NCBI GenBank assembly: GCA_943788835.1
Contig: CALSRU010000004.1
Location: 738,300-802,299 of the forward strand
Direction: 5' to 3'
DNA from: an uncultured Pseudomonadales bacterium
Lineage (GTDB): Bacteria > Pseudomonadota > Gammaproteobacteria > Pseudomonadales > UBA7434
Length of the DNA: 64,000 nt
Position numbers and translations under genes: made by a program. Shown piece by piece: positions 9,218 to 29,558 of this stretch; the stretch's first letter is position 1, and each line of letters opens with the position of its first letter. Under the pieces are notes generated by a model. The model was not told where the DNA came from, ran no database searches, and saw only the letters and a program-made list of their open reading frames with translations.

Positions 9218-9343
9218 ATGACCCATAAAAAGATTGCGCTTTTTATGGCCCTACGGGCTCGCTGCGCTCGGTGAAAATTGCAGTGCAATTTTGCGAACCC
9301 ACCGTTAGAACCAACCCACTGACCCAGACCGATAAATACAAAA

Positions 9344-9359
9344 GGCCCCGATGGGGCCC
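9344..9359 (-). terminator. Terminator of tRNA-Ser
   Basis: On the minus strand GGGCCCC and GGGGCC form a strong GC hairpin followed by UUUUGU, eleven bases beyond the CCA end of tRNA-Ser. Confidence 0.65.
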
Positions 9360-9369
9360 TTTATATTTA

Positions 9370-9457
9370 TGGCGGTGAGACAGGGATTCGAACCCTGGGT
9401 ACGTTACCGTACACACACTTTCCAGGCGTGCTCTTTCGACCACTCAGACATCTCACC
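9370..9457 (-). tRNA. tRNA-Ser (GGA)
   Basis: An 88-base class II tRNA with acceptor GGTGAGA/TCTCACC, a long variable arm, the T-loop sequence GGTTCGAATCC and an encoded CCA. The anticodon GGA is at 9421-9423 on the plus strand as TCC. It reads UCC and UCU codons. Confidence 0.95.
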
Positions 9458-10259: not shown

Positions 10260-10300
10260 TCTACGTTCTACCCATTTTAATTGAGCGTTAAGCTGCTATT

Positions 10301-11185
10301 TTATTGTCGTAAAAGCCGCACAACATCAAGCGACCCAGGATGATTGCTTCGGTAAGCACTAATGGCTATACCGCCGCGACGCGTGTAGCGAGCTAACACT
10401 GTTACAGCTTGCAGTTGCGGTAACTGCAAAAGGTCGGTGTATATTTGCTCTACGGTTTGCTCATGAAACCCATTGTGCTCACGATAACTCACAATGTATT
10501 GCAGTAACCCTGAGTAATCCAGCTTTTGTCCGGAATAAATAATGGTAACTGTTGCCCAATCGGGTTGCGATGTGACCGGGCAATTGCTGCATAGCAAATC
10601 AGACTGCACTACCTCATTAGTCACTTGCTGGTCAGTTACGGTTAGCAACTGCGGCGAGCGTTGATAAAGTGTGCAAGTCACATCGAGCTCATCAAGCTGC
10701 ACCATCGCACCCTGCTCGCTGCTGGCGGCGCTGTCGACTGATGCTGCGCCAATAACACCCGACGGTGTATGTAAGTCAAGCAGCTCAAGCGTCACATGAG
10801 CGCCGAGCAACTCACTCAGGTCACGCGATACGGTCTGCACAACCGCCTCGCTGCTAGCAAACGTGTGTTGATTAAGGCTATTTAAATAAAGCTTGAGCGA
10901 TTTTGATTCAACGATAATCGGTGACTCAACTGGCACCAGCAGTCTGCCGTGCTTCGCCACGGGCTTGCCGTGCGGATTAAGCCACGACAACTCATAGCAC
11001 TGCCACACATCAGCGCCAAACATAGGCTGCGTGGCACTGTAACCCATCACGGTTGCCCGATAGTTGGCGCGCGCTATGGCATGCAGCAATGAGGGCGTAT
11101 AGCCCTGTACATAATCGCTGTTATGGCCAAGCGGTGAGGTGCTGGCATAAGTTTCGCCAGTCGGTGAGGTATCGGGGTTAGACAT
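10301..11185 (-). CDS. queF: NADPH-dependent 7-cyano-7-deazaguanine reductase QueF
   Basis: 294 residues, the long two-fold form typical of gammaproteobacteria (about 280). QueF reduces preQ0 to preQ1 in queuosine biosynthesis, a tRNA wobble-base modification. The catalytic Cys202 and Asp209 are seen in CSNCPVTSQPDW, and the NADPH-binding segment ESKSLKLYLNSLNQ lies at about 93-106. C-terminal RRGGIAISAYRSN is also typical. No other queuosine gene is next to it. Confidence 0.95.
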   Translation of the reverse strand: MSNPDTSPTGETYASTSPLGHNSDYVQGYTPSLLHAIARANYRATVMGYSATQPMFGADVWQCYELSWLNPHGKPVAKHGRLLVPVESPIIVESKSLKLYLNSLNQHTFASSEAVVQTVSRDLSELLGAHVTLELLDLHTPSGVIGAASVDSAASSEQGAMVQLDELDVTCTLYQRSPQLLTVTDQQVTNEVVQSDLLCSNCPVTSQPDWATVTIIYSGQKLDYSGLLQYIVSYREHNGFHEQTVEQIYTDLLQLPQLQAVTVLARYTRRGGIAISAYRSNHPGSLDVVRLLRQ

Positions 11186-11316
11186 ATTTAGGGTTTACTG
11201 TGTTGCAGCATAAATAATGTATTTCGATTTAACTGGACTGGCGCACTGCTCAAACTTGCAACCACGGGCGCACGCAGATACGTTTACTTAATGCCGATGA
11301 AGCCAGCGACGTGATC

Positions 11317-12090
11317 TTAGCTACGCAATTTTTCACCGCGCGTTAACAGGTACATTGCAAAACCAAAGCCACCCAGCATAAACAGCGTGAGCATAAAATA
11401 AGAAACACCTAGCGACACATCACTCACACCCAAAATGCCGTAGCGAAAACCGTTCACCATATACAAGATTGGGTTAACCAAAGATACGTTGGCCCAAAAG
11501 TCGGGTAGCAAATCGACTGAATAAAATACACCACCTAAATAAATCAGGGGTGTGAGCACAAAAGTTGGAATAATGGAAATATCATCAAAACTATTAGCGT
11601 ACATGGCATTAAGGAAGCCAGCAATAGAAAACACCACAGCTGTCATTAACACCATACTAATGGTTATGGGCCAACTCTCTACACTCAGCTCGGTAAAAAA
11701 CAGCGCCAGCACCGTTACAATGCCACCCACTGCCAAACCGCGCAATACGCCACCGGCCAAATAGCCCAGCAAAATAGTTACCTCGGCGGTGGGCGAAACT
11801 AACAGCTCCTCTATGTTGCCCTGAAACTTTGTTCCATAAAAAGACGACACCACGTTGCCATACGAATTTTGAATAACGGCCATCATGATTAAACCCGGCA
11901 CTACAAACTGCATATAATCGTAGCCGCCCATTTGGCCAATGCGTGAGCCAATGAGGCTGCCAAATATCACGAAGTACAGCGCGATAGTGATAGCCGGTGG
12001 CACGAGCGTCTGCACCCAAATACGCATAAATCGGCGCACTTCTTTTACCACAATGGTTTTAAATGAAACCCACTGTATGGCCATATTCAT
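11317..12090 (-). CDS. yadH: ABC-2 type transporter permease (YadH-like)
   Basis: 257 residues with six predicted membrane helices, ABC-2 family. RRFMRIWVQTLVPP near the N-terminus, IVEELLVSP-like FQGNIEELLVSP in the middle and the LRS C-terminus closely follow Escherichia coli YadH as I recall it. It would form the membrane part of an exporter with the ATPase encoded just upstream; start and stop codons overlap (ATGA). The substrate is unknown. Confidence 0.92.
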   Translation of the reverse strand: MNMAIQWVSFKTIVVKEVRRFMRIWVQTLVPPAITIALYFVIFGSLIGSRIGQMGGYDYMQFVVPGLIMMAVIQNSYGNVVSSFYGTKFQGNIEELLVSPTAEVTILLGYLAGGVLRGLAVGGIVTVLALFFTELSVESWPITISMVLMTAVVFSIAGFLNAMYANSFDDISIIPTFVLTPLIYLGGVFYSVDLLPDFWANVSLVNPILYMVNGFRYGILGVSDVSLGVSYFMLTLFMLGGFGFAMYLLTRGEKLRS

Positions 12091-13085
12091 GATGCAGCTC
12101 CATCATTAGCGGCAGCGCCAGGTTCAACCACGGGGCTGTTTGCAGCTTGGTCATAACCCACAATCTTGCTGGGCTTTAACAAATTAACAAACATCTCTTC
12201 TAGCCGATTCGCTTTGTTACGCATGCTTGTAACTTCAATTCCAGCCCCATCAAACAAAGTAAACAGCTTATTAAGTGACTGCTCCTTGCCGACTTCAATT
12301 TCAACCTCAAGCATGTGTTCATCCATAATCCGCGCAGTAAACCCAGGCAACTCAAGCGGTGGTTGCAACGCATTGCGCGTGTCAAAAATAAAGATTTCGC
12401 GAGTAAGCTTGCGCAACAGCGATTTCATGCTGGTGTTTTCAATGATTTGGCCTTCATCAATAATGGCGATATTGCGGCACAAGCTCTCAGCTTCTTCGAG
12501 GTAATGCGTGGTGAGAATAATGGTAGTGCCCTCTTCGTTCACTTGGGTTAAAAACTCCCACATAGAGCGGCGTAACTCGATGTCCACGCCCGCGGTGGGT
12601 TCATCAAGCACTAAAAGTTGAGGTTCGTGCACCAGCGCTCGGGCAATCATCAAGCGGCGTTTCATACCGCCAGACAACGTGCGCGAAATAGTATCGCGCT
12701 TGTCCCACAAGTCGAGCTTGCGCAAGTATTTTTCGGCGCGCTGTTTGGCCAGCGCGCGCGACAGACCGTAGTAGCCACCCTGAGTGACTAAAATATCGAA
12801 CACTTTTTCAAATTGATTAAAGTTAAATTCTTGCGGCACCACACCCAAGCATTGCTTGGCTTGCTGGAAATCTTGGTCGATATCATGCCCCATAATACAA
12901 ACGCTGCCCGCGCTTTTGCTAACCACCGAGGTAAGAATGCCCAGGGTGGTTGACTTACCTGCGCCATTAGGCCCCAGCAGCGCAAAAAAATCGCCCTGAC
13001 GAACATGCAAATCGATACCCTTTAAAGCCTGAAAGCCATCGGCGTAGGTTTTTTTAAGGCCCTTGATCTCTAGCGCAACACTCAT
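12087..13085 (-). CDS. yadG: ABC transporter ATP-binding protein (YadG-like)
   Basis: 332 residues. Walker A GPNGAGKST at 38-46, signature LSGGM at 137-141 and Walker B LLVLDE at 157-162, followed by the H-loop TTHYLEEAE. It is the ATPase of a DRA-type ABC-2 exporter and overlaps the permease gene by four bases, which implies translational coupling. The C-terminal tail after about 300 is longer than in the E. coli protein and low in complexity (Ala, Gly, Pro). Transported substrate unknown. Confidence 0.93.
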   Translation of the reverse strand: MSVALEIKGLKKTYADGFQALKGIDLHVRQGDFFALLGPNGAGKSTTLGILTSVVSKSAGSVCIMGHDIDQDFQQAKQCLGVVPQEFNFNQFEKVFDILVTQGGYYGLSRALAKQRAEKYLRKLDLWDKRDTISRTLSGGMKRRLMIARALVHEPQLLVLDEPTAGVDIELRRSMWEFLTQVNEEGTTIILTTHYLEEAESLCRNIAIIDEGQIIENTSMKSLLRKLTREIFIFDTRNALQPPLELPGFTARIMDEHMLEVEIEVGKEQSLNKLFTLFDGAGIEVTSMRNKANRLEEMFVNLLKPSKIVGYDQAANSPVVEPGAAANDGAAS

Positions 13086-13209
13086 ACGTCTGTTGTTATT
13101 CCTTTCGTTTCAACTTACATTGGCTAGGCGAGGCACCTCACCAGCCAGCAATTAAAATAGTTAACTCAACTTAAGCACTCACACTTAAACCCACATTATA
13201 CAACCGCCT

Positions 13210-13704
13210 ATGTTACCACCTGCTAATGACCAAAATTCTATTATTACCGCGGCGCGTGAATTTCTAACCACATTTGAATCGATGCAACTGGCCACCGTTA
13301 ACTCAATTGGACAGCCGATGGCCAGTTACGCGCCATTTGTACGATTAGACAACGGGCAGCTAGGTATTTTTATCAGCGATTTAGCCGCTCATACCGCCAA
13401 TTTGCGTAACCAGCCTGTAGCCTCAGCACTTTTCCTTGAGCCTGAGACTCAAGCCAAGCAGATATTTGCGCGCAAGCGACTAATGCTGGAGTGCGGTGTG
13501 AGCATGCATCAGCGTGAATCGGCAGAATCGAGCCGGGTACTAAAGGCTATGCAGCAGCGCTTTGGCGATATTATCGCGCAGCTTACCCCGCTTGCTGACT
13601 TTCATGTCTTTACACTATCGATCACGCAAGCCACTTACGTAACCGGCTTTGCGCAAGCCTCGGTGTTTAGCGGGCCGACGTTTAACGCCAACCCGAGCGC
13701 CTAA
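13210..13704 (+). CDS. HugZ/pyridoxamine-oxidase-fold protein
   Basis: 164 residues with the split-barrel FMN-binding fold: FESMQLATVNSIGQPMASYAP near the N-terminus is the typical first strand pair. HugZ and HutZ proteins of this group bind and break down heme. A conserved C-terminal histidine loop is not obvious here, so heme activity is inferred, not shown. It lies tail-to-tail with a TonB-dependent receptor gene 48 bases away, and divergently from the yadG gene. A link to heme or iron uptake is plausible from that pairing. Confidence 0.75.
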   Translation: MLPPANDQNSIITAAREFLTTFESMQLATVNSIGQPMASYAPFVRLDNGQLGIFISDLAAHTANLRNQPVASALFLEPETQAKQIFARKRLMLECGVSMHQRESAESSRVLKAMQQRFGDIIAQLTPLADFHVFTLSITQATYVTGFAQASVFSGPTFNANPSA

Positions 13705-13751
13705 AGGTCAAACCCTCATCCACCTAGCACGAAACCGGCGCCCGGTGGGCA

Positions 13752-15963
13752 TTAGGGCCAACGGTACTCAATATCAACAAACAATGAGCGCGGCGCCGAT
13801 GGGAAGTAGCGATCGCCACTAAAACTGGTGTAGTCGGCTCGCTCGGCATATTGCACATCGGTAATATTGAGCAGCCGAAAACCGGCTTGCCAGTCATTGG
13901 CAAAGTTCCACTGCCCACGCAAATTCAAGTAATCATGCCCTGCATAGCGGTGCTCGTTTTCGGGGTCGGTGTAGTAACGCGATTGATGCACCCACTCTAA
14001 CTCGAGCTGCCCTCTTAAATCGAAAGACCTGCGCAAAAACGCCGTGCCAAAATGCAGCGGCGCACTATCGAGCTGCTTACCCGATAGTTTCACCCCACCC
14101 GACTCACGATTATTCGCATATTTGTGCTGAGCATAAGTGCCACGAACACCCGCCACTAGATCAGTGCGTAGTTGATAATCTAAAGCCACCTCAAGACCAC
14201 GATGAGTGGTTTGCCCATTGGCCACATTAAAAAAGTCTGAATCGCGGAAAATAACATTGTCTTTCTTATAGGCAAATATATTTATCTCATACGCTAAGGT
14301 GGCTGTTTGGCCACGCCCGCCGAACTCCAAGCCAAATATCTCTTCCGAATCCAGCTCGGCAGCGATTTGATCGCGCTGCAACCGGTACAGCTCAGTGGCC
14401 TGCGGTGCACGAAAGCCGTGGCTGGCATTAAAATAAAGCTGATGATTAACCGCCAACTCATAACGCAAGACCCACACTAGGCGACCAATTATTAAAACGG
14501 TCGTTGCGATCAGCCGGCCTTGAATAACGGCAACCGCCAAAACCGCAAGCCGCGCCATCTTCATCGGTGCGCCCATCGAGCATACGATTGTTATAGTCGT
14601 AGGCCATATGCTCATAGCGCAAGCCCGTGCTCAGCCACAGATCTTGCGCCAGCGGCCAATCCACATCCACAAAATAGCTCGCTTGCGTGGCATACACCTG
14701 ATAATCGTATTGTTTACCCTGCGGAATCGTCGCCACTAGAAAAGCAGAGCCCTGGGTAGACCCATACTGAGTTTGACGAAGAAAGGCATCGGTTAATTCA
14801 ACATCGACCCCGGTATTGATTGTCCACCCTTGCGCTCCACTAAACTGATAATTAGTTTGCACGCCTGCACTGACTTGCCCATTGGATTCTACCGGCTGAC
14901 CCGGCAAAAAGTGCATTAAAAAATCCATCTCGGCATAGCGCGCATAGGGCGTCACGATCAGCAGGCTTTGCTCGCCTATGCTGTAGCGCAGCTCATGTAA
15001 AAAACGCGCCGATTGCGCATTGCGATAAGCATTGGGGTCGTCATTGGTTTCGCGCAGCGCATCATCTTTATAAGCGAGGCTACCCTCAAGATAACTAGCC
15101 GTTTGCTGGCGCAAATTACTGTATGTGAAAATAGAGCGGGCATTGAGCGCGCCCAAATTGTTGGTGGTAGTTTCATAGCCATGCTGCAAAGTAACTTTTT
15201 GCTGGTCGTAACCCGAAGATGCCCTAAACCCTCGGTCTTGCGCCAGTGTGATATCAGCACGTACGTTGTGGGCATCGAATGCACTACCACTTGAAACGTG
15301 TGTTCGATAAAAATCTTCCGGCCCCGCCTCAAGGCTGATCGCGGGTGACGATGCATTAGCTAAGCTGGGCGAAATAATGTTCACCACGCCGTGCACTGCA
15401 TTGGAGCCAAAACTGACCTGCGCCGGCCCACGAATAACCTCTATACGCTGCGCCGCTTCGGTATGTGCATCGAACAATTCATTCACATTGCAAAAACCTG
15501 CGGCGCGCAATGGCACACCATCGGCTGCGGCCAACACGCTGCCACATGCACCGCCACCCGTTAAGACCGGCGAGCGCACCGCCGGTAAATATTCTTGTCC
15601 ACTGCCTCTCGCGAAGTTTACACCAGCTACTCGCGCCAGCGCCTGCGCAACATGCGCGTGACGAACAAGCCGCAGCTCATCACTATTGAGCAGTGCACTG
15701 TTGCCAGTCAGCTCACTGCGGCGCTGGCCGACACGATTACCAGTAACAACAACCTGTTGCAACACGGGAGATAAATCGCGCTGCTTAGCCGAAGGCACAG
15801 TATCTGCTTGGGCATAAGCAGCTGGATTCAGACCTAACACCTGTACTGCGACGACTATTAACACCATTGGCCTTGCGCGGATGCCGTATAGTAATAGGGC
15901 AACCGGGTTACACAACGCTGCCAACAAAAACGACGGGGAGCGATAAACTAGTGAAAACATCAT
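13752..15963 (-). pseudogene. TonB-dependent receptor interrupted by a one-base frameshift
   Basis: Two overlapping frames together encode about 736 residues of one receptor. The first (15963 to about 14464) has a signal region ending in PAAYAQA, then the plug domain with QQVVVTGNR, DGVPLRAAGFCNVNEL and IEVIRGPAQVSFGSNAVHG, and the first barrel strands. The second continues with YELAVNHQLYFNASHGFRAP and runs to the C-terminal strand ending in RSLFVDIEYRWP. The join fits if one T is removed near 14463, where GCGTTATGAG should read GCGTATGAG. AGAAGG lies eight bases before the start ATG. Uptake of an iron complex or heme is likely from the family; the neighbouring HugZ-like gene supports heme. 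It may be a true mutation or a sequencing error. Confidence 0.8.
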
Positions 15964-16185
15964 GCAAAGACCTTCTAGTCATTTAGAAAAAAAATCGGTA
16001 AAAGCGCCATCAATCCCGAGATCACATGCCAATAAAGCAACATTTGGTGGGAGCCAACGCAGTTTACTCATTAAGGGTTTATGTTTAAACTGCAAAGCGG
16101 GTATTTATTGGCCCAACAAAAGTTAACTGCCAACCTCTAACCGTTTCAAGCTCGCGCCAAAATCAATTGAGAAAAAACACTAGGA

Positions 16186-16710
16186 ATGGAAAAGCGATCT
16201 AAAGTTGCAACAAAAAAAATAAGCGGTGTGACGCTTATTGAGCTTGTTGCAGTGATTGTCATACTGGGCATACTGGCCTCATTCATACTGCCAAAAGTCA
16301 TTGGCCTATCAAGCTCTGCAAAAATTGGCGTACTCAACAGCATTGTCGGTAGCATGCGATCAACCATTGATATGACGAAGATCAAAGCACATGCGGCAAG
16401 CATGAAACGAGCCGACAATGCATCACAGCAAGATCAGTTTATCGTTGACTTCGGTTGGGCCAGCGCAGAAATAGATTGGAGAAATCTGTGCCCAGAGAGC
16501 TCGGCTGAACTAGCCGACCGATTAGACATGACTGACTTTCTCGAACTCAGCGCGAATAGCGGAGTTACCTCATTGACCAATAACCAATATACTTTAATTG
16601 GCTATGACATCCCCGGGTTTTCGACACCGACCAATCAAGGCTGCTATATTATTTACGACTCTTTTGGCGACCCCGATTGCACGCTGACACTTGTGACCGC
16701 AGATTGCTAA
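16186..16710 (+). CDS. Type IV pilin-like protein, copy 1
   Basis: 174 residues. A class III signal peptide reads KKISG then VTLIELVAVIVILGILASFI, with Gly at -1 and Glu at +5 as prepilin peptidase requires; the helix would carry the protein into a pilus or type II secretion pseudopilus. The globular part has four Cys (NLCPESSAEL, GCYIIYDS, PDCTLT, TADC) that may form two disulfides. A paralogue 1.1 kb downstream shares nearly the whole sequence. No assembly ATPase, platform protein or other pilin genes are nearby, so this is an orphan pair. The ribosome binding site is weak. Confidence 0.85.
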   Translation: MEKRSKVATKKISGVTLIELVAVIVILGILASFILPKVIGLSSSAKIGVLNSIVGSMRSTIDMTKIKAHAASMKRADNASQQDQFIVDFGWASAEIDWRNLCPESSAELADRLDMTDFLELSANSGVTSLTNNQYTLIGYDIPGFSTPTNQGCYIIYDSFGDPDCTLTLVTADC

Positions 16711-16797
16711 CGAAATTTAACGGCTCATGCTCGCGACGGCGCACCGCCCACCACTGCACCTACACTGCTTTTCATTCACTCGAAATTTTTACGTACT

Positions 16798-16832
16798 ACC
16801 CAACACCCAACACCCAACACCCAACACCCAAC
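16798..16832 (+). repeat. Five perfect copies of the heptamer ACCCAAC
   Basis: A 35-base simple repeat without interruptions, in the gap between the first pilin gene and the epimerase remnant. The unit length is not a multiple of three, so it could vary by slippage, but no open frame crosses it. Confidence 0.9.
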
Positions 16833-16855
16833 AAGACTATGAGGCTAAGATCTAT

Positions 16856-17143
16856 CTAAATCAACGCGTATTGCTTGAGTTGACGAGCCGTCTCTAAAAT
16901 TGAATTCTCAGCAGGCCTTGGCTTCCAGTCAAGAATGTCCTTTGCTTTGGTGGTATGGCAATCTCTGGGCTTGCCCACCATTTTAGAAAGCACGACCAAA
17001 TCGCTTTTGAACCATGCCATTATTTTTAACAACCAGTTTGGCATGTTGTTTTGCGGTGCCTTATAGCAATCACTATTCAAAACATGAGCGATTTCATCTC
17101 GGATGATAGGTGTCAGTAAAACACCGTTTTTTCCTGCCACTGC
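16856..17143 (-). pseudogene. 3' remnant of an NAD-dependent epimerase/dehydratase gene
   Basis: About 95 codons remain. The text near the end (TTKAKDILDWKPRPAENSI, then LETARQL) matches the C-terminal substrate-binding part of extended short-chain dehydrogenase/epimerase proteins, which have KARxxLGWxPR there. The Rossmann domain with its GxxGxxG motif, about 200 residues, is missing; upstream of the remnant the minus strand is A+T-rich with stops. It lies on the opposite strand between the two pilin copies. Confidence 0.65.
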
Positions 17144-17275
17144 CGTTTACTCACTTACGATTTAAATTTAGAATTAGAATTTAAATTAAGGGTAGAGCCT
17201 TACTCACCAATGTAAAGTTAATACCCCCGTCAAACCGTTTAAAATGGCTCCAAACCATATTGAGCAAAAGTCACT

Positions 17276-17815
17276 ATGAATGAAAAGCGGTCTCAAATTC
17301 TAACAAAAAAAATGGGCGGTGTGACGCTGATTGAGCTTGTCGCAGTGGTCGTTATACTGGGCATACTTGCCTCATTCATACTACCAAAAGTTATTGGCCT
17401 TTCAAGCTCTGCGAAAATTGGCGTACTCAACAGCATTGTCGGCAGCATGCGATCAACCATTGATATGACGAAGATAAAAGCGCACGCTGGGGGCTTAACG
17501 CCTGTCGGCTTAATGTCAGGGAGTCAGTCCCTACAAACCCCCTATATCGTCGACTTCGGCTGGGCCAGCGCAGAAATCGATCACCGAAATCTGTGCCCAG
17601 AGAGCTCGGCTGAGCTAGCCGACCAATTGGACATGATTGACTTCCTCGAACTCAGTGCGAATAGCGGAATCACCTCATTGACCAATAACCAATATACTTT
17701 AGTTGGCTATGACATCCCCGGGTTTTCGATTCCGACCGATCAAGGCTGCTATATTATTTACGACTCTGCTGGCATCCCCGATTGCACACTGACCGTCGTG
17801 ACCGCGGATTGCTGA
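17276..17815 (+). CDS. Type IV pilin-like protein, copy 2
   Basis: 179 residues, closely similar to the protein encoded at 16186-16710 in both protein and DNA. It has the same prepilin signal (MGG then VTLIELVAVVVILGILASFI) and the same four Cys. It differs mainly in a short segment around residues 70-82, where the two copies have unrelated sequence and lengths (AGGLTPVGLMSGSQ here). That segment may be a surface loop under diversification. The copy follows an A+T-rich spacer after the epimerase remnant. Role as for copy 1: presumably a minor pilin or pseudopilin, with no system genes adjacent. Confidence 0.85.
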   Translation: MNEKRSQILTKKMGGVTLIELVAVVVILGILASFILPKVIGLSSSAKIGVLNSIVGSMRSTIDMTKIKAHAGGLTPVGLMSGSQSLQTPYIVDFGWASAEIDHRNLCPESSAELADQLDMIDFLELSANSGITSLTNNQYTLVGYDIPGFSIPTDQGCYIIYDSAGIPDCTLTVVTADC

Positions 17816-18217
17816 CCCATGTTACACGTCACCACTGCGCGATAACGTAGCTCACATCCGCCACACGACATTACCGTTCGTTCAATCTGTAATTTCAAGC
17901 ACGACCTAAAAACACTCAACCAACTGAAAGTTTGCTCAATGACAACGCGCTATTCCGCATCTAAACGCCTTAGTCTATTGAGTGGCAAAAATGGTTTAGC
18001 CGCCACAACACCTCAAACACTCTTATTGCACGAAACGATTAAGGGGCTTATCACAGTGCTGAAAATCTGAAGGGCATGGAGAGCGCAGACTTCAGCGCGG
18101 CAGGATATGGCGTTTAGCACACCGGATATGGCGAGGTAAGTGTGGGAAGCACTGTTGGTATGGGGCTTCCCGTGCGCTATAGGCCGTTAGGAATTCGGTG
18201 CTCTGGCAAGAAAAAAA
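17816..18217. other. Intergenic region between pilin copy 2 and tRNA-Glu
   Basis: About 400 bases with no supported gene. A 43-codon frame at 17940-18071 has no family resemblance or ribosome binding site. The short sequence GGATATGGCG occurs twice around 18102-18135. I see no hairpin with a T run after the pilin stop. Confidence 0.5.
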
Positions 18218-18293
18218 TGGCGTCCCCTAGGGGGTTCGAACCCCTGTTACCGCCGTGAAAGGGCAGTGTCCTAGGCCACTAGACGAAGGGGAC
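18218..18293 (-). tRNA. tRNA-Glu (TTC)
   Basis: A 76-base tRNA with acceptor GTCCCCT/AGGGGAC, T-loop GGTTCGAACC and an encoded CCA, followed on its strand by seven T residues. The anticodon TTC lies in the loop CTTTCAC and appears as GAA on the plus strand at 18257-18259. It reads GAA and GAG. Confidence 0.95.
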
Positions 18294-18523
18294 GCAACGT
18301 AGGAGGCGCGTATTTTACTGATACATTTACAAAGTGCAACCGTGAAAACTCAACATATATGAAATAAATTGACTGACTCTTTTATACCTTACTTAACCGC
18401 GGGATACAAAAAGGTTTACAACAACGACAAACCTGCCCAGCACAGACTGCATGAATCGCCATCAGCCTGGCATACGCCTAATATACGAAACAATAAAGCT
18501 GCTTATTTCCTTACCCGCTAGCA

Positions 18524-18551
18524 TTGCATGCCAACCAATTCGCGTTAAAAT
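18524..18551 (+). promoter_or_regulatory. Possible sigma-70 promoter of the LeuB-like gene
   Basis: TTGCAT and TAAAAT are separated by 16 bases, about 100 bases before the start codon. The rest of the 360-base gap (18294-18653) shows a small inverted repeat, AGGTTT/AAACCT near 18410-18430, and no gene. Confidence 0.4.
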
Positions 18552-18653
18552 AGCGACCCTTTTTTGGCTCGCCGCTCGCTGTTCCTTGCACGGGCCAACC
18601 CGTAACAGGCGCTCACGCCCCACTCACAATCCACAGACACAAACGGAATACAG

Positions 18654-19760
18654 ATGAAGCATTTCAAAATTGGTATATTTGCCGGCGACGGCATAGGCCC
18701 AGAAATCATGCGCGAAGGCTGTCGTGTACTTGAGCTGGTAGGTAGCCGCAATAACGTTAAATTTGAGTTGGTAGAAGGCGCCTTTGGTGCCAATGCCTAT
18801 TTTAGCGAAGGCGATTGTTTTCCTGAAGCCACCAAAGCGATATGCGACAGTGCTGATGCCATACTCAAAGGCCCTATTGGGCTGAGCCATGAAGAATCGA
18901 AAAAAATTCCTGTAGACCAGCAGCCTGAGCGCGGCGCCCTGCTGCCTATGCGCCGCCGCCTAAACACCTACGCGAACTTTCGTCCGGTTTATTTGCCCAA
19001 ATCCTTGGCCCACTTTTCACCACTCAAGCCTGAGGTGATTGGTGAAGGGATCGATATGATCATGGTGCGCGAACTCGTCGGCGGCCTCTACTTCGGCAAG
19101 AAAGAAGTGGGGGTTAGCGCTCAGGGTAAACGCTATGTTGTAGAAGCCTTAGAATACGACGAAGACCAAATTCGCAATATATTAGTTGAAGCATTTAAGA
19201 TTTCGCAGCGCCGTAAGAAAATCTTACACAACATACACAAAAGCAACGTTTTAAAGTCGAGTGTGCTTTGGAACGAGATTGTTGAAGAAGTTAAAGTCGA
19301 TTACCCCGATGTAGAGGTGCGCCACATGCTGGTTGATGCCGCCGCAACAGCCTTATGCTTAAACCCCACTCAGTTTGACGTGATGGTGATGGAAAATATG
19401 TTTGGCGATATTCTTAGCGACCAAGGCGGCGGCATCCTTGGCTCACTCGGCCTCATGCCATCGGCCTGTATAGGCCCCGACCGCGCCTACTACGAACCTT
19501 CACACGGATCGGCGCCCGATATTGCCGGGCAAAACATTGCCAATCCTTACTCGATGATAGGCTCGGTTGCGATGATGCTCGAATACAGCTTTGAGATGAC
19601 GGCTGAAGCCAACAACATTTGGCATGCACTCCAAGCCGTATTTGATGATGGCTACTCAACGGCTGATCTATCTAAGCCTGGCGCCGGTGTTAATATGATT
19701 GCCACGAATGAATTTGGCGATAAGGTTGTAGAAAAGCTAGCGGCAATGCCCGTTGTTTGA
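18654..19760 (+). CDS. 3-Isopropylmalate dehydrogenase family protein (LeuB-like)
   Basis: 368 residues of the isocitrate/isopropylmalate dehydrogenase family, acting as a dimer in the cytoplasm with NAD and a divalent metal. GDGIGPEI (11-18), the Arg-rich MRRRLNTYANFRP (about 99-111), the catalytic Lys196 in HKSNVLKSS, Asp228 in MLVDA, and GDILSD (251-256) are all present. HGSAPDIAG (about 285) follows LeuB rather than isocitrate dehydrogenase. The sequence departs from typical gammaproteobacterial LeuB, and leuC and leuD are absent. The LeuA/CimA-like gene 1.7 kb away suggests the pair may act in the citramalate route to 2-oxobutyrate and isoleucine; that is an inference. Confidence 0.85.
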   Translation: MKHFKIGIFAGDGIGPEIMREGCRVLELVGSRNNVKFELVEGAFGANAYFSEGDCFPEATKAICDSADAILKGPIGLSHEESKKIPVDQQPERGALLPMRRRLNTYANFRPVYLPKSLAHFSPLKPEVIGEGIDMIMVRELVGGLYFGKKEVGVSAQGKRYVVEALEYDEDQIRNILVEAFKISQRRKKILHNIHKSNVLKSSVLWNEIVEEVKVDYPDVEVRHMLVDAAATALCLNPTQFDVMVMENMFGDILSDQGGGILGSLGLMPSACIGPDRAYYEPSHGSAPDIAGQNIANPYSMIGSVAMMLEYSFEMTAEANNIWHALQAVFDDGYSTADLSKPGAGVNMIATNEFGDKVVEKLAAMPVV

Positions 19761-19895
19761 CTAATGTAAACAACGGCCCGCTTGCAGAGCTGACCTTGCT
19801 AAGCATCCATGACCAATCATGGATGATAAACCCCGACTGGCAAACCATTAACAGCCAGTCAGCGTAGGTTAAGCAAAGAGCACGGGCCGTTTTTG
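19750..19895 (+). promoter_or_regulatory. Nested inverted repeats, possible structured RNA or terminator
   Basis: AACGGCCCG (19772-19780) pairs with CGGGCCGTT (19883-19891), which is followed by TTT. Inside are two perfect hairpins: CATCCATGA/TCATGGATG (19804-19825) and GACTGGC/GCCAGTC (about 19835-19860). A competing stem, CCGTTGTTT (19750-19758) with AAACAACGG (19768-19776), spans the stop codon of the LeuB-like gene and shares AACGG with the outer stem, so the two cannot form together. This could be a multibranched terminator, a regulatory switch before the ABC1 kinase gene, or a small repeat element with 9-bp ends. Confidence 0.5.
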
Positions 19896-19969
19896 CCGCT
19901 AACAAACAGGGCAACGACAATTCATCAAAGCCACAATGCGCTCTCCGCGCAAACTAGTTTGACTTGGGC

Positions 19970-21370
19970 ATGGCGAAAGATTTCTCTCAGATAAAAGCGA
20001 AAGCATTCGCGCGCAACCTGTCGGCTTCATTGGCCGGCCTGCGTGCCGGCGGCGCCATGGCGATTGATCAAGCCATGCATAAAATTGCAGGTGATCAGCC
20101 AGACGCACCCCACTCCGAATTTGCCCAGCGCGAGGCGAAGCGCTTCGTCAGCGAACTGGGTAAATTAAAAGGCTCCTACGTTAAAATCGGCCAGATGCTG
20201 GCTTTATTTGGCGAACACTTTTTACCGCCCGTTCTCACCGAAGCATTACATCAACTCGAAGACAGCACCCAGCCGCTGCCCTGGCACACAATGGAACCGG
20301 CCATACGCGCAGCATTGGGCCCACGCTACCACGAGCTTGATATTCAAAAAAACGCCATCGCCGCAGCGTCCATGGCACAGGTGCATCGTGCCACGATACG
20401 GTCGACGGGCCAGTCGATTTGCTTAAAAGTACAGTATCCGGGCTTAGCTGAAGTCATCGACTCAGATTTTGATGCCGTGGTTCGCATGCTGCTACTAGCG
20501 CGTTGGCTAAAAACAGGTCGCGACCTCGACAGCTGGCTGGCAGCCATGCGCGCGCAACTGCATATTGAAATGGATTATCATAACGAAATGACTATGGCGA
20601 ATCAGCTCGACGGCCATATTGCAGCATTGGCAAACCGCACACCTGCCAAAAACATACGCTACGCCCTACCCTGTTTCTATCGCGACTACTGCAGCAAAAC
20701 AACCTTAGCGATGGATTATATTAAAGGCGAGAACGTCAACTCAGCCACCGTTGCGGCACTACCTCAGGCGCGGCGCAATGCGCTTGCGCAGGCGATGCTC
20801 GATTTATTTTTTCTTGAAGTATTTGACTGGGAGCTGATTCAAACTGATCCCAACTTTGGCAACTACTTAATTCGCCTGGGCGATGGCGAGACTCGGCCCG
20901 ACGAGCTAGTTTTACTCGACTTTGGCGCCGTAAAATCCATGACAGCCGATGACCTTGATCACTTGCGCAGCGTCATTGCCGCAGGCCTAGAAAGCGATAC
21001 AGGGGCGATGATTAAAGGCTTACAAGGCTTAGGCTGGCTAGTCGACGATGCATCAATCGAAGCACAGCATAGCTTTGCTGATTTTTGTATGCACCTGCTT
21101 GAACCGCTGCAAAAGCCCGAGACGCTGCCGGCTGAGTATCTCAATGCCAACGGTGAGTATAAATGGGCCAATTCACAACTGATTCAACGAGCCGGTAAAG
21201 CGGGCGTATCGAAGGCATCAAGTCGCCATTTCACCACCCCCAGCAAAGACTTTTTAATGATCGCTCGCAAACTCACAGGAGTGTTTACCTTTATTGCCGC
21301 ACTCAATGCAGAGTTTAATGGGTATCCCCGTACGCGCCAGCATATCGAACGCTGGCGCAACAACCACTGA
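19970..21370 (+). CDS. ABC1/UbiB-family atypical kinase
   Basis: About 466 residues. The family hallmarks are present: KxGQ motif in GSYVKIGQML (about 72-75), the Ala-rich loop AAASMAQVHRA (about 131-141) that replaces the usual glycine loop, the nucleotide-binding Lys in CLKVQYPG, and LLDFGAVK as the metal-binding Asp motif. UbiB and COQ8 proteins are ATPases or kinases that support ubiquinone synthesis. There is no clear C-terminal membrane helix pair as in UbiB proper, so this is a paralogue of unknown substrate. A TTG at 19964 is in frame, but the ATG at 19970 is preferred. It follows the nested repeat region. Confidence 0.88.
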   Translation: MAKDFSQIKAKAFARNLSASLAGLRAGGAMAIDQAMHKIAGDQPDAPHSEFAQREAKRFVSELGKLKGSYVKIGQMLALFGEHFLPPVLTEALHQLEDSTQPLPWHTMEPAIRAALGPRYHELDIQKNAIAAASMAQVHRATIRSTGQSICLKVQYPGLAEVIDSDFDAVVRMLLLARWLKTGRDLDSWLAAMRAQLHIEMDYHNEMTMANQLDGHIAALANRTPAKNIRYALPCFYRDYCSKTTLAMDYIKGENVNSATVAALPQARRNALAQAMLDLFFLEVFDWELIQTDPNFGNYLIRLGDGETRPDELVLLDFGAVKSMTADDLDHLRSVIAAGLESDTGAMIKGLQGLGWLVDDASIEAQHSFADFCMHLLEPLQKPETLPAEYLNANGEYKWANSQLIQRAGKAGVSKASSRHFTTPSKDFLMIARKLTGVFTFIAALNAEFNGYPRTRQHIERWRNNH

Positions 21371-21470
21371 GCATCAGCTCGCCATGACGAGCACCGCGAA
21401 ACAAACATTATGTGTGAATAGGGGAACAACTCACCAGGCTAGATAGATCAATAGGCACATAAGCCGACGA

Positions 21471-23000
21471 TTAGCCGCGTGATTGATGAACCAAAATATT
21501 GACTAACCGCATCGTTGCTTCAATAGCCGCATAAACCTGATTGGCATTGGTGCTACGCGTGGTGATCTTTTTGCCGCTAGCCATCTCCCAGGTAATACTT
21601 GCCTCAGTTAGGGCATTCGATTTGCCACCACGCGGAATATGCACTTTATAATCGCTAAGCTGAGGAAACTCGACCCCTACCTTCTCAACGATGGGGCGAA
21701 TAGCCGCCATAAAGGCATCGTAGCCGCCGTTACCTTCGCCGTGCGCGCTGTAGCTGTCACCATCAAATATAACTTCTATAGCCGCGGTGGCTTGCTGCCC
21801 CCAATGACTTTCAAGGTCGCAGCGCTGCAAACTGACATATTGGAATTGCTGGCTCTCAAGTACGTCAGCAATAATAAAGGGTAAATCGTCAGGTGTGATA
21901 CGTTGCTTAGAATCGCCCAAACTGACTACCCGCTCGAGCACACGATTGCGATCACTCTCTGATAGTGCAATGCCTAAGTCTTCTAAGTTTTTCGCCAACG
22001 AGGCCTTGCCGCTCATTTTCCCCAGCGCGTACGTGTGTTTACGGGCAAAACGCTGCGGATGCAGCTTGCTTACGTATAAATTGCCCTTCTGATCGCCATC
22101 GGCGTGAATACCCGCTGTTTGAGTAAAAACATCAGTGCCCAAAATGGGCGCATTAGCCGCTACAAACTTGCCTGAAAAACTTTCAACCATCTGACTCACG
22201 CTAACAATGTGGCTTTCGTCAACGCTCACTTGCATCTGCATTTTGTCTTGTAGGACCACCGCGACTTCAGCCAGAGAGGCATTGCCGGCACGCTCACCTA
22301 AACAGTTTACCGTGCAGTGAATGCTACTAATACCTGCCTGTACGGCGGCCATAACATTAGCTGTTGCTAGCCCGTAATCGTTGTGCGGATGAAAATCGAA
22401 ATGATGGCCCGGAAATTTATCGCGCATATCTTTTAGGCTGTCGTAGACTTCCGTAGGCGACATAACACCAAGAGTATCGGGCAACATGATGTGTGCTATG
22501 CCTTTATCTAACAGTGCCTCTGCCAGAGCATACACATAGTCACGGCTATCGGCATAACCATTAGACCAATCTTCAAAATAAATATTCACTTGCAAACCGC
22601 ACTGCTGTGCATAAACAACCGTTTGCAGGATGTCAGCTATATGCGCGTCGAGCGTCTTGCCCAGCTGTTCGCGGCAATGCTTTTCGCTGCCCTTAGTGAG
22701 TAAGTTAATGACCTTGCCGCCAGCACCTATTACCCAATCAACACTCTTAGTGTGGTCAACAAAGCCCAGCACTTCAATGCGGCCGGCATAACCGTTTTGG
22801 TCGGCCCATGCATTAATCTGCGAAACTGCCTGCTGCTCACCTTTAGATACCCGTGCGGATGCGACTTCTATGCGATCGACATTAAGACGCGATAACAGCG
22901 CTTTGGCCAAGCTGACCTTTTCTTCAGGCGCAAACGATACACCCTGCGTTTGCTCGCCATCACGCAGCGTGGTGTCCATAATTTCAATTTGTCTGGACAT
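21471..23000 (-). CDS. 2-Isopropylmalate/(R)-citramalate synthase family protein
   Basis: 509 residues. The N-terminal TIM barrel starts with IEIMDTTLRDGEQTQGVSF, the HMGL-like acyl-CoA-condensing signature, and includes HFDFHPHNDYGLATAN and the metal-binding HIHCT-like SSIHCTVNCLGERAGN. The C-terminal LeuA regulatory domain is at about 390-505. The enzyme condenses acetyl-CoA with a 2-oxo acid. The sequence looks closer to the LeuA2 type common in Bacteroidetes, thought to make citramalate from pyruvate, than to proteobacterial LeuA; this is from memory and needs a tree. It is convergent with the ABC1 gene and upstream of the LeuB-like gene's partner reaction. Confidence 0.85.
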   Translation of the reverse strand: MSRQIEIMDTTLRDGEQTQGVSFAPEEKVSLAKALLSRLNVDRIEVASARVSKGEQQAVSQINAWADQNGYAGRIEVLGFVDHTKSVDWVIGAGGKVINLLTKGSEKHCREQLGKTLDAHIADILQTVVYAQQCGLQVNIYFEDWSNGYADSRDYVYALAEALLDKGIAHIMLPDTLGVMSPTEVYDSLKDMRDKFPGHHFDFHPHNDYGLATANVMAAVQAGISSIHCTVNCLGERAGNASLAEVAVVLQDKMQMQVSVDESHIVSVSQMVESFSGKFVAANAPILGTDVFTQTAGIHADGDQKGNLYVSKLHPQRFARKHTYALGKMSGKASLAKNLEDLGIALSESDRNRVLERVVSLGDSKQRITPDDLPFIIADVLESQQFQYVSLQRCDLESHWGQQATAAIEVIFDGDSYSAHGEGNGGYDAFMAAIRPIVEKVGVEFPQLSDYKVHIPRGGKSNALTEASITWEMASGKKITTRSTNANQVYAAIEATMRLVNILVHQSRG

Positions 23001-23112
23001 GGTATGACTGACTCTACACGTTGTTTTTTACTTTCATTAAATTTAGCTTAACTCATCTTACTCTTTCTAAGCAGTTAGCGTCTAACTGCCCATCATGGGC
23101 TAACCCACTCGT

Positions 23113-25764
23113 TTATGTTAGCGCTTGGACCAATTGCTGCTGCGTATTTTTAAGTGCCGCAGGTAAAGCCTGGCGATCAACGCCTCCGCCCTGAGCAAAT
23201 TGCGGTTTGCCGCCCCCCTTACCGCCGAGCTCTGTAGCAAGCGCCTTAATGATGTCACCGGCTTTAACTTGGCCGACAAGGTCATCGGTAACACCTGCTA
23301 CCAAGGCTATTTTATCGCCGCCCGTTGCCGCCAATACCACCACGCCACTGCCCATAGCCTGCTTGAGTTGATCAACGGTATCGCGCAGTGACTTGGCATC
23401 GGCATCGGGCATTTCAGCTACTAACACTTTTTTGTCATCTACCTGTACCGCGCCACTCATCAAGTCGCTGCCAGCACTACTGTTGAGCTTTTGCTGCAGA
23501 CGCTGCAATTCTTTTTCTAGCGTTTTTTGCGTATCGAGCAATTGGCTCACTTTACTCACCAACTCACTAGGCTGCGCGCGTAACATCGAGGCCGCTTGCG
23601 CTATCGTTTGATCGACAAGCACCACATCGGCCAACGCCTTAACACCTGTGACCGCTTCAATACGACGAACCCCGGCCGCAATACCTGCCTCACTAATAAT
23701 TCTAAAAAAGCCGATGTCGCCGGTGCGCTCAACATGAGTACCACCGCATAGCTCTACGGAAAAACGATTATCGCCCATGGCCAACACCCGAACTTCATCA
23801 CCGTATTTTTCGCCAAACAATGCCATGGCTCCAGACGCTTTAGCACTTTCCATATCGGTGACTTGCACATCAACCGTTGTGTTAGCGCGAATATGCTGAT
23901 TGACCAACTGTGCCACCTCGGCAAGTTGCTCAGCAGTGATGGGCTGATTGTGCGCAAAGTCAAAACGCAGGCGCTCGGCATCAACCAAGCTGCCCTTTTG
24001 CGCCACATGATCGCCCAATACCAAGCGAAGTGCCGCGTGCAATAGGTGTGTAGCCGAATGGTTTAATGCTGTAGCTTGGCGGTGGGCAGTATCAACGCAA
24101 GCTTCTAGTTGATCACCTTTACCCAAACTGCCACTGCGCAATTCACCAACATGCAAAAATGTATTGCCCTGTTTGCGAGTATCGTTTACCACAAACTCGC
24201 CGCCGGCGGCCTTGAGTACACCCATGTCACCCACCTGCCCACCCGACTCCGCATAAAAAGGTGAGCTGGCCAAAATCACCACCCCGCTTTGCCCTGCATG
24301 CAGCTGATCGACCGCTTGCCCATCAACAAACAAAGCTTCTACCGCCCCGCTATCGAGCAGCTGCGTATAACCGCTAAAATGCGTTTGCTTGCTAGCACCA
24401 GCTGATTCAATATCGAGCTTCTCGAGCGCGCCCGTCTTAAATTGGCTAGCCGCCTTGGCTTGCGCTCGCTGCTGATCCATGGCTTGTTGGTAGCCCTCAT
24501 TATCCACCAATAAACCCTGCTCACGCGCAATATCGGCCGTCAAATCTAACGGAAAACCATAGGTATCATAAAGCTTAAAGGCCACTTCACCAGGAATTGT
24601 CTTACCACTTAGCCCAGCAATGTCTTGCGACAATATCTTCATACCCTGTTCAAGCGTTTGTGCAAATTGCTCTTCTTCTGTTTTTAACGCCCGCTCAATG
24701 TTAGCTTGCTGTGCAATCAGCTCAGGATAGGCCGCCCCCATTTGTTCGGCTAGCGCCGCCACCAATTTATAAAAAAACAATTGCTGGGCACCCAACTTGT
24801 TGCCATGGCGAATAGCGCGACGAATAATTCGACGCAAAACATAACCGCGACCTTCATTCGAAGGCAACACACCGTCAGCAATAAGAAATGCACAGGAGCG
24901 AATATGGTCAGCAATAACACGCAAAGACCCCTGCCCAGTATCTTGAATACCTAATACTTGTGCAGTAGCCGCAAGCAAATTTTGAAAAAGATCGATTTCG
25001 TAGTTGCTGTGCACGCCTTGCATCACAGCGGCCACACGCTCTAAACCCATGCCAGTATCAACCGATGGCTTAGGCAAAGGATGTAAAACGCCATCAGCCG
25101 TGCGGTTGTACTGCATGAACACAATATTCCAGATTTCGATGTAGCGATCGCCATCTTCTTCTGGCGTACCCGGCAAGCCACCCTCTATATCTGCACCATG
25201 GTCATAGAATATTTCGGTACACGGGCCACAGGGACCGGTATCACCCATTGCCCAAAAGTTATCGGATGCATAGCGCGCACCTTTATTATCGCCAATACGA
25301 ATAATACGCTCAGGGGCTAGGCCAATGTCTTTATGCCAAATATCAAAAGCCTCTTGATCATCGGCATAGACCGTTACCCACAATTTTTCAGCGGGGATAC
25401 CTAATGTCTGGGTAAGGAAATTCCAGCCATAGGGAATAGCCTGCGTTTTAAAGTAATCGCCAAAACTGAAGTTACCCAACATTTCAAAAAAGGTGTGATG
25501 ACGGGCGGTATACCCCACATTTTCAAGATCGTTATGCTTACCACCGGCACGCACGCAACGCTGTGAACTAGTAGCGCGACTGTAACTGCGTGGATCATCG
25601 CCAAGAAACACATCTTTAAACTGCACCATGCCAGCATTGGTAAACAGCAATGTGGGGTCATTGCCCGGCACCAGCGAACTGCTGGCCACACGAGTGTGTG
25701 CTTCGCCCTCAAAATACTGTAGGAATGCTTCGCGTATATCGGCGCTTGATTGGATACGGCTCAT
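23113..25764 (-). CDS. alaS: Alanyl-tRNA synthetase
   Basis: About 883 residues, the usual bacterial length. It attaches alanine to tRNA-Ala and edits mischarged Ser and Gly. The class II core begins with [18 protein letters not shown] and [19 protein letters not shown]; motif 2 and [15 protein letters not shown] follow. The editing domain has the zinc-binding [11 protein letters not shown] and [13 protein letters not shown]. The C-Ala domain ends with [16 protein letters not shown] at 25770 is in frame, but ATG at 25764 fits other AlaS starts. RecX and csrA, common neighbours, are absent here. Confidence 0.97.
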
Positions 25765-25863
25765 GAACAATGACTCGAAAAGTTTATTAGTTTATTTTGC
25801 AAACAAATGGCTGCATTACATTGAGCTGCACGCCGATTATTTTACTCACACAGATAATTAAGC

Positions 25864-26205
25864 TTAGGCCATACCTTCGTTCATGGCATGTCCGCCTAAA
25901 ATATGTAGATGCAAATGAAATACGGTTTGCCCGCCGCCGGCGCCATTATTAATGATGACTCGATAACCCTCAGAAATACCTAGTTGCTCAGCCACCTTAG
26001 CGACGCTTAATAGCAAATGGCCAAGCAATGCCTGATCGGTCGCAGCGGCATCGGATAATTTGGCAATGGATTGTTTAGGAATAACGAGCACATGAACAGG
26101 CGCTTGCGGATTAATATCGTTTATCGCAATGCAATGCTCGTCTTCGTAGAGTTTATCGGCTGGGATTTCGCCGGCAATGATTTTACCAAAAATAGTTTCG
26201 CTCAT
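25864..26205 (-). CDS. hinT: HIT family protein (HinT-like)
   Basis: 113 residues. ETIFGKIIAGEIPADKLYED at the start and the histidine triad HLHLH near residue 97 followed by ILGG define the HinT branch. These enzymes hydrolyse purine nucleoside phosphoramidates such as AMP-lysine. It shares a strand with the Trm112-like gene immediately upstream (3-base gap), so they are probably cotranscribed. Confidence 0.93.
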   Translation of the reverse strand: MSETIFGKIIAGEIPADKLYEDEHCIAINDINPQAPVHVLVIPKQSIAKLSDAAATDQALLGHLLLSVAKVAEQLGISEGYRVIINNGAGGGQTVFHLHLHILGGHAMNEGMA

Positions 26206-26208
26206 TGC

Positions 26209-26400
26209 TTAATCCAGCGCTTCTATTTCTTCGGGCGCTAATTGTCTTGCCTCGCTCTCAAGCATAACGGGGATATCATCTCGCACAGGATAAGCCAAAC
26301 CACTGACGCGACACTGTAGTTCATTTTTTTCAGGCACAAATTCCAGTGGCGCTTTACTCACCGGGCAGACCAAGATACTCAATAACTTTTTATCTAACAT
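26209..26400 (-). CDS. Trm112-like small protein (YcaR family)
   Basis: 63 residues. [14 protein letters not shown] and [19 protein letters not shown] match the Trm112p/YcaR family. Only Cys12 and Cys30 remain of the metal-ligand Cys seen in eukaryotic Trm112. In gammaproteobacteria this gene often sits beside lpxK and kdsB; here it is beside hinT. Role uncertain, perhaps a small stabilising partner for other enzymes. Confidence 0.9.
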
Positions 26401-26462
26401 ATAACGTTTAACCCTGTACTAATAACTCTCTGCCAATAAACCCGTGCTAACCAATAAAAAAA

Positions 26463-27422
26463 CTAATCACCCGTTTTTGTCGACTCAATGGACTCATGAG
26501 GTAATGCTACCCAGTCACTCATAGGTTCAACCAGTAACTGTGGGTCAAGCCGTATATTCCCGCCGGCGCCAGTCCAATTCATACGCCAATCAAGATGCGC
26601 ACCGGTTACACGGCCAGTAGCACCAATATGCCCAACCTGCTGACCTTGGCGAACCTGCTGTCCCTCTTCTACCAGCAATTTGCTTAAATGTAAAAACGTC
26701 GAAGACAGCCCATGACCGTGGTCAATAATTAAGGTCCCCCCCGAAAAATATAAATCCGGGTGTGCCAGGGTCACTAAACCGGCACTTGGAGCAACCACCG
26801 GCGTGCCGGTTGGCCGTGCCACATCAACACCATAATGAGGTCTGCGTGGCTGTCCATTATAAACACGCTGAGAGCCAAACACACCTGTAATAGGGCCGCG
26901 AACCGGCCAAATAAAACCATCAAAAAAGTCATTTTGCGCGCGCTGCTGCCTACGCGCATTCACCACCCACTGCCCCTCGCGCCGGGAGCGCTCAACTTGC
27001 TTAGGATTGGGCTCTACATACTTCTGCTCGACACCCTCAATGTGTTGTATTGAATACTCTCTAGTACGAATAGCAAATGGATAGACCTGAGTATTCATCG
27101 ACTGCGCTTGGGTGCTTGCGAGGCTGCTTGCGGGGCTGCTGACCTGGAGCACCAACTCAGGCTCGGCATCGCGATCGAGCGCAACAATAAAACGATGTTG
27201 CTGGTCAAGCTGCAGCGCTTTGCCCCGGTACTGCACGCTCTGCCCAGGTTCGAGCTGACCCACTAACAACCCCCCTTGCACAGGGTCGCCGGTTAGTTCG
27301 AGCGCATTAGTCGCTGCCATTCCAAAACAGCTGAGTAAGGCAACCCTACCAATTACATAGGCATACTTGGCCGCCAACGCCGCTAACCTATTTACTATTG
27401 AGACTATTTTCTGCACATTCAT
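26463..27422 (-). CDS. M23 (LytM-domain) peptidase
   Basis: 319 residues with a signal or anchor helix near 15-40. The C-terminal M23 domain (about 170-300) has PHYGVDVARPTGTPV, which supplies the zinc-binding His and Asp, STFLHLS with the catalytic-site His, and GAHLDWRMNW, where the second His of the usual HxH is Asp. It would act on peptidoglycan cross-links in the periplasm. The Asp variant may still bind zinc; I recall similar HLDW sequences in other M23 proteins, so it is not necessarily inactive. It lies upstream of the Trm112-like gene on the same strand and divergent from greB. Confidence 0.85.
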   Translation of the reverse strand: MNVQKIVSIVNRLAALAAKYAYVIGRVALLSCFGMAATNALELTGDPVQGGLLVGQLEPGQSVQYRGKALQLDQQHRFIVALDRDAEPELVLQVSSPASSLASTQAQSMNTQVYPFAIRTREYSIQHIEGVEQKYVEPNPKQVERSRREGQWVVNARRQQRAQNDFFDGFIWPVRGPITGVFGSQRVYNGQPRRPHYGVDVARPTGTPVVAPSAGLVTLAHPDLYFSGGTLIIDHGHGLSSTFLHLSKLLVEEGQQVRQGQQVGHIGATGRVTGAHLDWRMNWTGAGGNIRLDPQLLVEPMSDWVALPHESIESTKTGD

Positions 27423-27619
27423 CCTGTTTTTCTTGCTACAGTAACTTTGCTACCGTAACTTTCATACCGTAACTACGTTAAAGTTGAACCACTACGTCAG
27501 CAACGCTGGAAACATAGCGCCGTGGAGCTACCAAACGGCTAAAGTGAAAACGACGAAATCCGCTATGTGCACAGCCAACTCACACAGCCAACCCACAACC
27601 GCACCGTTACTACTTATTT

Positions 27620-28123
27620 ATGGGACGCTATCGGCCACCTAGACCTCATGGGTCTAACTATATCACTCCTGAGGGCGAGCGCGCACTGCGGGCAGAGCTG
27701 CGCGAACTATGGAAAGTGGAGCGGCCACAAATAACAGCATCAGTACATGAAGCCGCCAAAAATGGGGATCGCTCTGAAAATGGCGATTACATTTATGGCA
27801 AGAAACGATTGCGGGAAATTGATAGCCGCGTTCGGTTTTTAACGAAACGCCTTGAGCATATTACGGTTGTTGACGCACTGCCGAACGACCGCAACAGGGT
27901 GTTTTTTGGTGCTTGGGTTACCCTAGAAAATGCGCAGGGAGATCAGCAGCGTTATCGCATTGTGGGGCCAGATGAATTTAATTTGGCTGAAGGTACAATG
28001 AGCATGGATTCACCGCTAGCCAAAACCTTACTGGGCAAACCATTGGATGCTCAAGTACAAGTTCCAACACCTAGCGGCATTATTGAGTACGATATAGTAG
28101 CCATTGATTATATCGCCAGTTAA
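27620..28123 (+). CDS. greB: Transcription elongation factor GreB
   Basis: 167 residues, slightly longer than E. coli GreB (158). The N-terminal coiled coil carries the basic RPHGSNYITPEGERALRAEL start and the acidic tip SENGDYIYGKKRLREID that reaches into the RNA polymerase secondary channel to stimulate cleavage of backtracked RNA. The C-terminal FKBP-like domain follows. Terminal basic residues and GKKRLREID separate it from GreA. It is a single-gene unit divergent from the M23 gene. Confidence 0.95.
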   Translation: MGRYRPPRPHGSNYITPEGERALRAELRELWKVERPQITASVHEAAKNGDRSENGDYIYGKKRLREIDSRVRFLTKRLEHITVVDALPNDRNRVFFGAWVTLENAQGDQQRYRIVGPDEFNLAEGTMSMDSPLAKTLLGKPLDAQVQVPTPSGIIEYDIVAIDYIAS

Positions 28124-28173
28124 TGGGTGCTCACTGAATGACCCACATCCATGCGCCTTACGTATTATAATGC

Positions 28174-28202
28174 TTGACACATTTGCCAGCTTACTCTTTA
28201 GA
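28174..28202 (+). promoter_or_regulatory. Sigma-70 promoter for hemH
   Basis: A perfect TTGACA at 28174-28179 and TTTAGA at 28197-28202 are separated by 17 bases, in the greB-hemH gap, about 150 bases before the hemH start codon. Confidence 0.5.
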
Positions 28203-28349
28203 CTTGGTACCCGTTAGTAGTCGCCAAACAACCGCCGGCCAACATTATTAGCCAAACGCTGACCGCAAACATCAAGCACACGTATACATCTTAAGCACAG
28301 ATATTAATCTGCAAACCAACCATTAATTACCACCAGCTGGACATTCACT

Positions 28350-29453: not shown

Positions 29454-29558
29454 TTTGGTCATTGCTCAAAGGCAAAAGAATTTAATGGGCAGATTCACAC
29501 AACCAGTTCGTCGTATGCCTTGCCCCGTGCATGGCCTTTGATACAATGCCCTCGCTGC

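Follow-up and report, generated by a model that had tools for sequence, protein, structure and literature searches.

REP, ERIC and MITE sequences are short dispersed palindromic elements, and the element described here is, like them, an intergenic nested imperfect palindrome of 100-170 nt; however, it is single copy and no dispersed relatives of it were found. Terminator/antiterminator attenuators offer a second comparison, as they and the element possess two stems with common bases. In the element, however, the shared bases number only 5 nt and the stems largely coexist, and neither a ligand-binding core nor a compensatory change was recognised. Regarding intrinsic terminators, the canonical limits given for TransTermHP in the passage cited are a stem-loop of at most 59 nt and a loop of 3-13 nt (PMC12207403), and terminators serving two strands require 5' adenines and 3' thymines, as the TransTermHP authors put it in the part cited (PMC1852404). 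With such intrinsic bidirectional terminators the element shares a G+C-rich closing stem running directly into a T-rich tract (T5), an A-rich opposite (5') flank and a position directly behind a stop codon; it departs from them in that a spacing of ~100 nt with two hairpins takes the place of the loop of 3-13 nt, and so exceeds the 59-nt limit. With moderate confidence, we interpret the element as an intrinsic (Rho-independent) terminator of unusual build at the end of a LeuB-like gene, lineage-specific and possibly two-way. In a literature search for terminators with a branched or cloverleaf build, no title among the matches listed describes this form, and we do not claim its absence from print.

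The window (the whole 64-kb stretch of DNA that was analysed) contains, on the plus strand, the LeuB-like gene of the isocitrate/isopropylmalate dehydrogenase family (18654-19760; Pfam Iso_dh, 7e-107), whose product scores 353.8 bits against the TIGR00169 leuB model (cut-off 353.2). Downstream on the same strand lies an ABC1 atypical kinase-like gene (19970-21370; Pfam ABC1, 1.5e-42), which likely starts at the ATG at 19970, a start codon matched by eye in the related genome G009. The ABC1-kinase gene has no evident link to the amino-acid-pathway gene that precedes the element. The next gene past it, on the opposite strand, best resembles citramalate synthase, with a score below the model's cut-off.

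Between the two plus-strand genes, an outer stem of 9 bp, G+C-rich, is formed by a 5' arm at 19772-19780 (AACGGCCCG) and a 3' arm at 19883-19891 (CGGGCCGTT), the latter belonging to a stretch (19883-19894) in which CGGGCCG is followed by the T run (TTTTT, 19890-19894). Given one mismatch the stem extends to 12 nt, its 12-nt arms lying 102 nt apart. It encloses two perfect hairpins, one of 9 bp with a 4-nt loop (19804-19812/19817-19825) and one of 7 bp with a 12-nt loop (19835-19841/19854-19860). A competing hairpin, a perfect 9-bp stem of -11.1 kcal/mol when folded alone, pairs 19750-19758 (CCGTTGTTT) with 19768-19776 (AAACAACGG); the LeuB-like stop codon TGA (19758-19760) lies inside it, and five of its bases, AACGG, are also part of the outer stem. 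All these stems had been named in a preliminary description of the locus, and all are present. Two further layers were absent from that description: an enclosing perfect 9-bp inverted repeat, TAGCGGCAA at 19738-19746 and TTGCCGCTA at 19893-19901, the 5' arm of which falls within the LeuB-like gene, and an interaction, predicted when 19740-19920 is folded, in which 19903-19913 pairs with both 19747-19751 and 19754-19759. A frame of 36 codons across the element (19757-19867) was considered as a small protein and rejected; it is open in the sister species G007, but four of the six codons that differ there encode another amino acid, and a search of 38 genomes gave matches in just the two species.

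The structure is far more stable than its composition would give. The 146 nt of 19750-19895 fold at -56.7 kcal/mol, as compared with -33.8 +/- 3.6 for shuffled sequences (z -6.31; none of 200 shuffles as stable), and the opposite strand gives a z of -4.57. In a window-wide scan corrected by G+C regression (6386 stretches, both strands), the element region takes rank 3 when places have to be separated by more than 150 nt; the best-scoring stretch in it is 19721-19866 on the minus strand. Its stem pattern is rare: a search for perfect 9-bp stems with at least 6 G+C, a spacing of 50-130 nt and a T-rich 3' end returned one occurrence per strand, and both are the element (44110-44229 on the minus strand is equivalent to 19772-19891), as against a mean of 0.04 and a maximum of 2 in 100 first-order Markov resamples. 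An A-rich 5' flank explains why the minus strand matches too. The fold with the highest G+C-corrected score in the window is located at 9241-9386 on the minus strand, where it overlaps the end of a tRNA-Ser gene (9370-9457).

Simple terminator function had been kept in the preliminary description as a fallback; given the G+C-rich stem, the T5 and the position behind the stop codon, it becomes our preferred reading. The closing stem CGGCCCG/CGGGCCG and its T5 would be held together by ~100 nt arranged in two hairpins on a further imperfect stem. Owing to its A-rich 5' side, the element would present a T-rich tail (TTGTTT) on the minus strand, and antisense transcription through ABC1 could also stop there. 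Termination and its possible action in two directions are what we infer from the anatomy and from the predicted stability of the fold. The location immediately behind the stop codon and the uniqueness of the stem pattern in 64 kb would count in favour of a terminator. A scan for terminators with loops of 3-8 does not list the element. In 10000-29999, standard terminator-like sites number 30, compared with 25.6 +/- 5.4 in shuffles; since they are no commoner than in shuffles, the standard scan says little on transcript ends in this genome. If the element does terminate transcription, it would exemplify an intrinsic terminator that is invisible to searches with the usual loop limit and would argue for a search for branched terminators; if it does not, it would be an unremarkable structure at a gene end in one small lineage.

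The same position could also suit a hairpin that stabilises the mRNA 3' end or is processed by RNase III between two co-transcribed genes, and does not terminate. We regard this as very doubtful: a strong double-stranded structure between two same-strand genes is what it would predict, but a G+C-rich stem leading directly into T5 is the signature of a terminator, and 19902-19969 has 1 change in 68 positions relative to the sister species, as might be expected of a separate promoter or leader of ABC1, although its change rate does not differ significantly from that of the element (9/141; p 0.17). The near-unchanged sequence of this stretch would agree with a promoter or leader that belongs to ABC1 and lies past the terminator. 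The gap preceding the LeuB-like gene is similarly unchanged (2/114). From 19905 onwards, 19902-19969 shows 0 changes in 65 positions, and by eye it contains a perfect 12-nt palindrome, CAAACTAGTTTG, just 5' of the ABC1 start codon; it is possible that this conserved stretch with its palindrome is a promoter or operator.

The preliminary description had also taken the outer and competing stems to be mutually exclusive, the mark of a switch or attenuator. The sharing of 5 nt stands, but the stems appear only partly exclusive, because no more than these 5 nt are shared and the predicted fold of 19750-19895 contains most of both, with 7 of the 9 competing pairs alongside 6 of the 9 outer pairs (the core GGCCCG/CGGGCC). 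Which stem prevails depends on the stretch folded. When 19740-19920 from this genome is folded, the outer stem is the favoured one, with eight of its nine pairs at a probability of at least 0.89 and the innermost at 0.68, the competing pairs reaching at most 0.04; the folds predicted for 19738-19896 and 19738-19920 likewise contain all nine outer pairs. In a transcript cut at 19896 the probabilities spread to 0.37-0.99 for the outer pairs and 0.03-0.73 for the competing ones, the outer pairs nearest the T run having 0.37-0.68 and the upper competing pairs 0.57-0.73. When the alternative forms are forced, they lie ~3 kcal/mol apart (-61.4 vs -58.7; -70.8 vs -67.7). In the sister species, over 19740-19920, seven competing pairs (0.85-0.87) form alongside the five inner pairs of the outer stem (0.77-0.97). 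The incomplete outer stem in the cut transcript and in the fold of 19750-19895 would count against termination.

These folds bear on the idea of a regulated attenuator, in which the stem over the stop codon would act as antiterminator, competing with the terminator, and make the expression of ABC1 dependent on a ligand or on how the LeuB-like gene is translated. The common AACGG bases, the ~3 kcal/mol between the two forms, and the fact that both are predicted to be populated in the cut transcript, with a balance differing between the two species, would all be expected of it. The G+C core of the outer stem nevertheless coexists with most of the competing stem, the sister species has lost a competing pair (C-G to A-A, both partners changed) that no other change compensates, every Rfam family stays below its threshold, and with the element in two genomes only, covariation would hardly be visible. 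Altogether we consider such an attenuator quite improbable, and the switch suggested earlier is not supported: the competition covers 5 nt only, the only relative shows no compensation, and its stability does not exceed what random mutants show. In the preferred terminator reading, a ribosome that has reached the stop codon would prevent the competing stem from closing, and the terminator stem could then form. A predicted fold in which 19743-19772 is made unavailable, to mimic such a ribosome, retains 8 of the 9 outer pairs (-53.1 kcal/mol), the ninth being excluded by construction. A translation-gated branched terminator in which the ribosome at the LeuB-like stop opens the competing stem, so that read-through into ABC1 reports poor upstream translation with a balance shifted between the sister species, strikes us as extremely unlikely.

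The sister species differs from this genome at 11 of 181 positions in 19740-19920. Besides the lost competing pair, the G-C pair 19775-19888 of the outer stem, near the T run, has become A-C, with the three pairs outside it falling to probabilities of 0.11-0.29; in hairpin 1 a T-A has become T-T, and one pair is lost outside the 7-bp core of hairpin 2. In the far outer repeat a G-C has become G-T and the pair is kept. The preliminary description had looked to compensatory changes in both stems as support for a conserved RNA; this one relative has none, with three pairs of the named stems lost and none restored. The loss near the T run counts against a strict need for the full stem there. Stems defined on this genome will tend to be broken by any change, hence the comparison with random mutants: 77.6% of 1000 mutants of this genome's sequence with 11 random substitutions are at least as stable as the sister sequence, which, because the mutants are mostly as stable or better, shows no sign of preserved pairing. 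Conversely, none of 1000 random mutants of the sister sequence reaches the stability of this genome's element. With two sequences only, the more palindromic form is probably older, or else it may owe its regularity to selection or template switching within this lineage. The noncoding part of the element (19761-19901) carries 9 changes in 141 positions, fewer than the fourfold sites of both genes (79/384; p 6e-5), but not significantly fewer than the nearby fourfold sites (21/165; p 0.08). As the second of these differences is not significant and the gap preceding the LeuB-like gene has changed even less, we make no claim that the element is under special selection.

A BLAST search and a covariance model (R1) both found one full copy of the element in the genome. 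With the model, 2 of 12 genomes of the genus carry it, namely this one and the sister species. Extending the model search to 293 genomes of the order again gave just these two, apart from two weak partial matches in a single further genome (G021; E 0.029 each, one overlapping the locus L013 in an open frame). Within the genus, G005 gave a weak partial match (E 0.221) inside an open frame. Ten loci with weak BLAST matches in the genome itself and in relatives were read; nine fall within open frames of 80 codons or more and have only 17-27 nt in common with the element, or a partial match of 55 nt (L013), and the tenth (L003) is intergenic, with unique sequence apart from a 16-nt match. Phages and plasmids gave no match to the element, and viral contigs no exact match to one 23-base pattern. 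No Rfam family reaches its gathering threshold at the element, where the best match below it scores 17.7 bits against a threshold of 50 (E 0.35); within the window just three tRNAs do. The core sites of integron attC are RYYYAAC and GTTRRRY; an attC site was rejected, as either strand of 19700-19960 has just one of the two motifs.

With one copy in the genome by both methods, the many scattered copies of a small mobile repeat, foreseen in the preliminary description as another outcome, did not appear. A lone relic of a small palindromic mobile element (MITE- or REP/ERIC-like), which entered between the genes before the two species diverged and has been decaying since, is nevertheless a rival, though a rather unlikely one. 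It would explain the nested imperfect palindrome of ~120-170 nt with matching ends, its presence in two species and absence from the same gap in G009, and the lower stability in the sister species, which is what random mutation would give. It sits badly with the single copy, with the lack of any copy elsewhere in the 12 genus or 293 order genomes beyond weak partial matches, and with the missing phage or plasmid match; moreover, no target duplication is seen by eye, and the gap of G009 is too different to be a clean empty site.

Gene order was readable at the 3' end of the LeuB-like gene in eight of the 12 genus genomes (of the others, one has N there, one has a contig ending within the gene and two gave weak matches at paralogue level). 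ABC1 follows in three of the eight (this genome, the sister species and G009), and a convergent citramalate-synthase-like gene in five. G009, with the same gene order, has a gap of ~72 nt without the element and only an imperfect 13-nt inverted repeat extending into the ABC1 gene, which would count against the terminator reading. Of the five genomes with the convergent order, G002 and G004 were searched for inverted repeats, and both carry an unrelated strong hairpin at the junction of the LeuB-like and citramalate-synthase-like genes, overlapping the end of the convergent gene; hence, a hairpin at the end of the LeuB-like gene recurs with different sequence, which would speak for a terminator. 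The junction hairpins in two related genomes are located at L041 1430-1465 and L042 2071-2122. In this window, the junction at which ABC1 and the citramalate-synthase-like gene converge lacks any inverted repeat of at least 8 nt; structures of this kind thus do not stand at every gene end of the genome, a point against the terminator. Upstream of the LeuB-like gene, 16186-16710 and 17276-17815 are neighbouring, closely similar open reading frames with pilin-like N-termini (GVTLIELVAV...LGILASFILPKVIGLSSSAK), as judged by eye.
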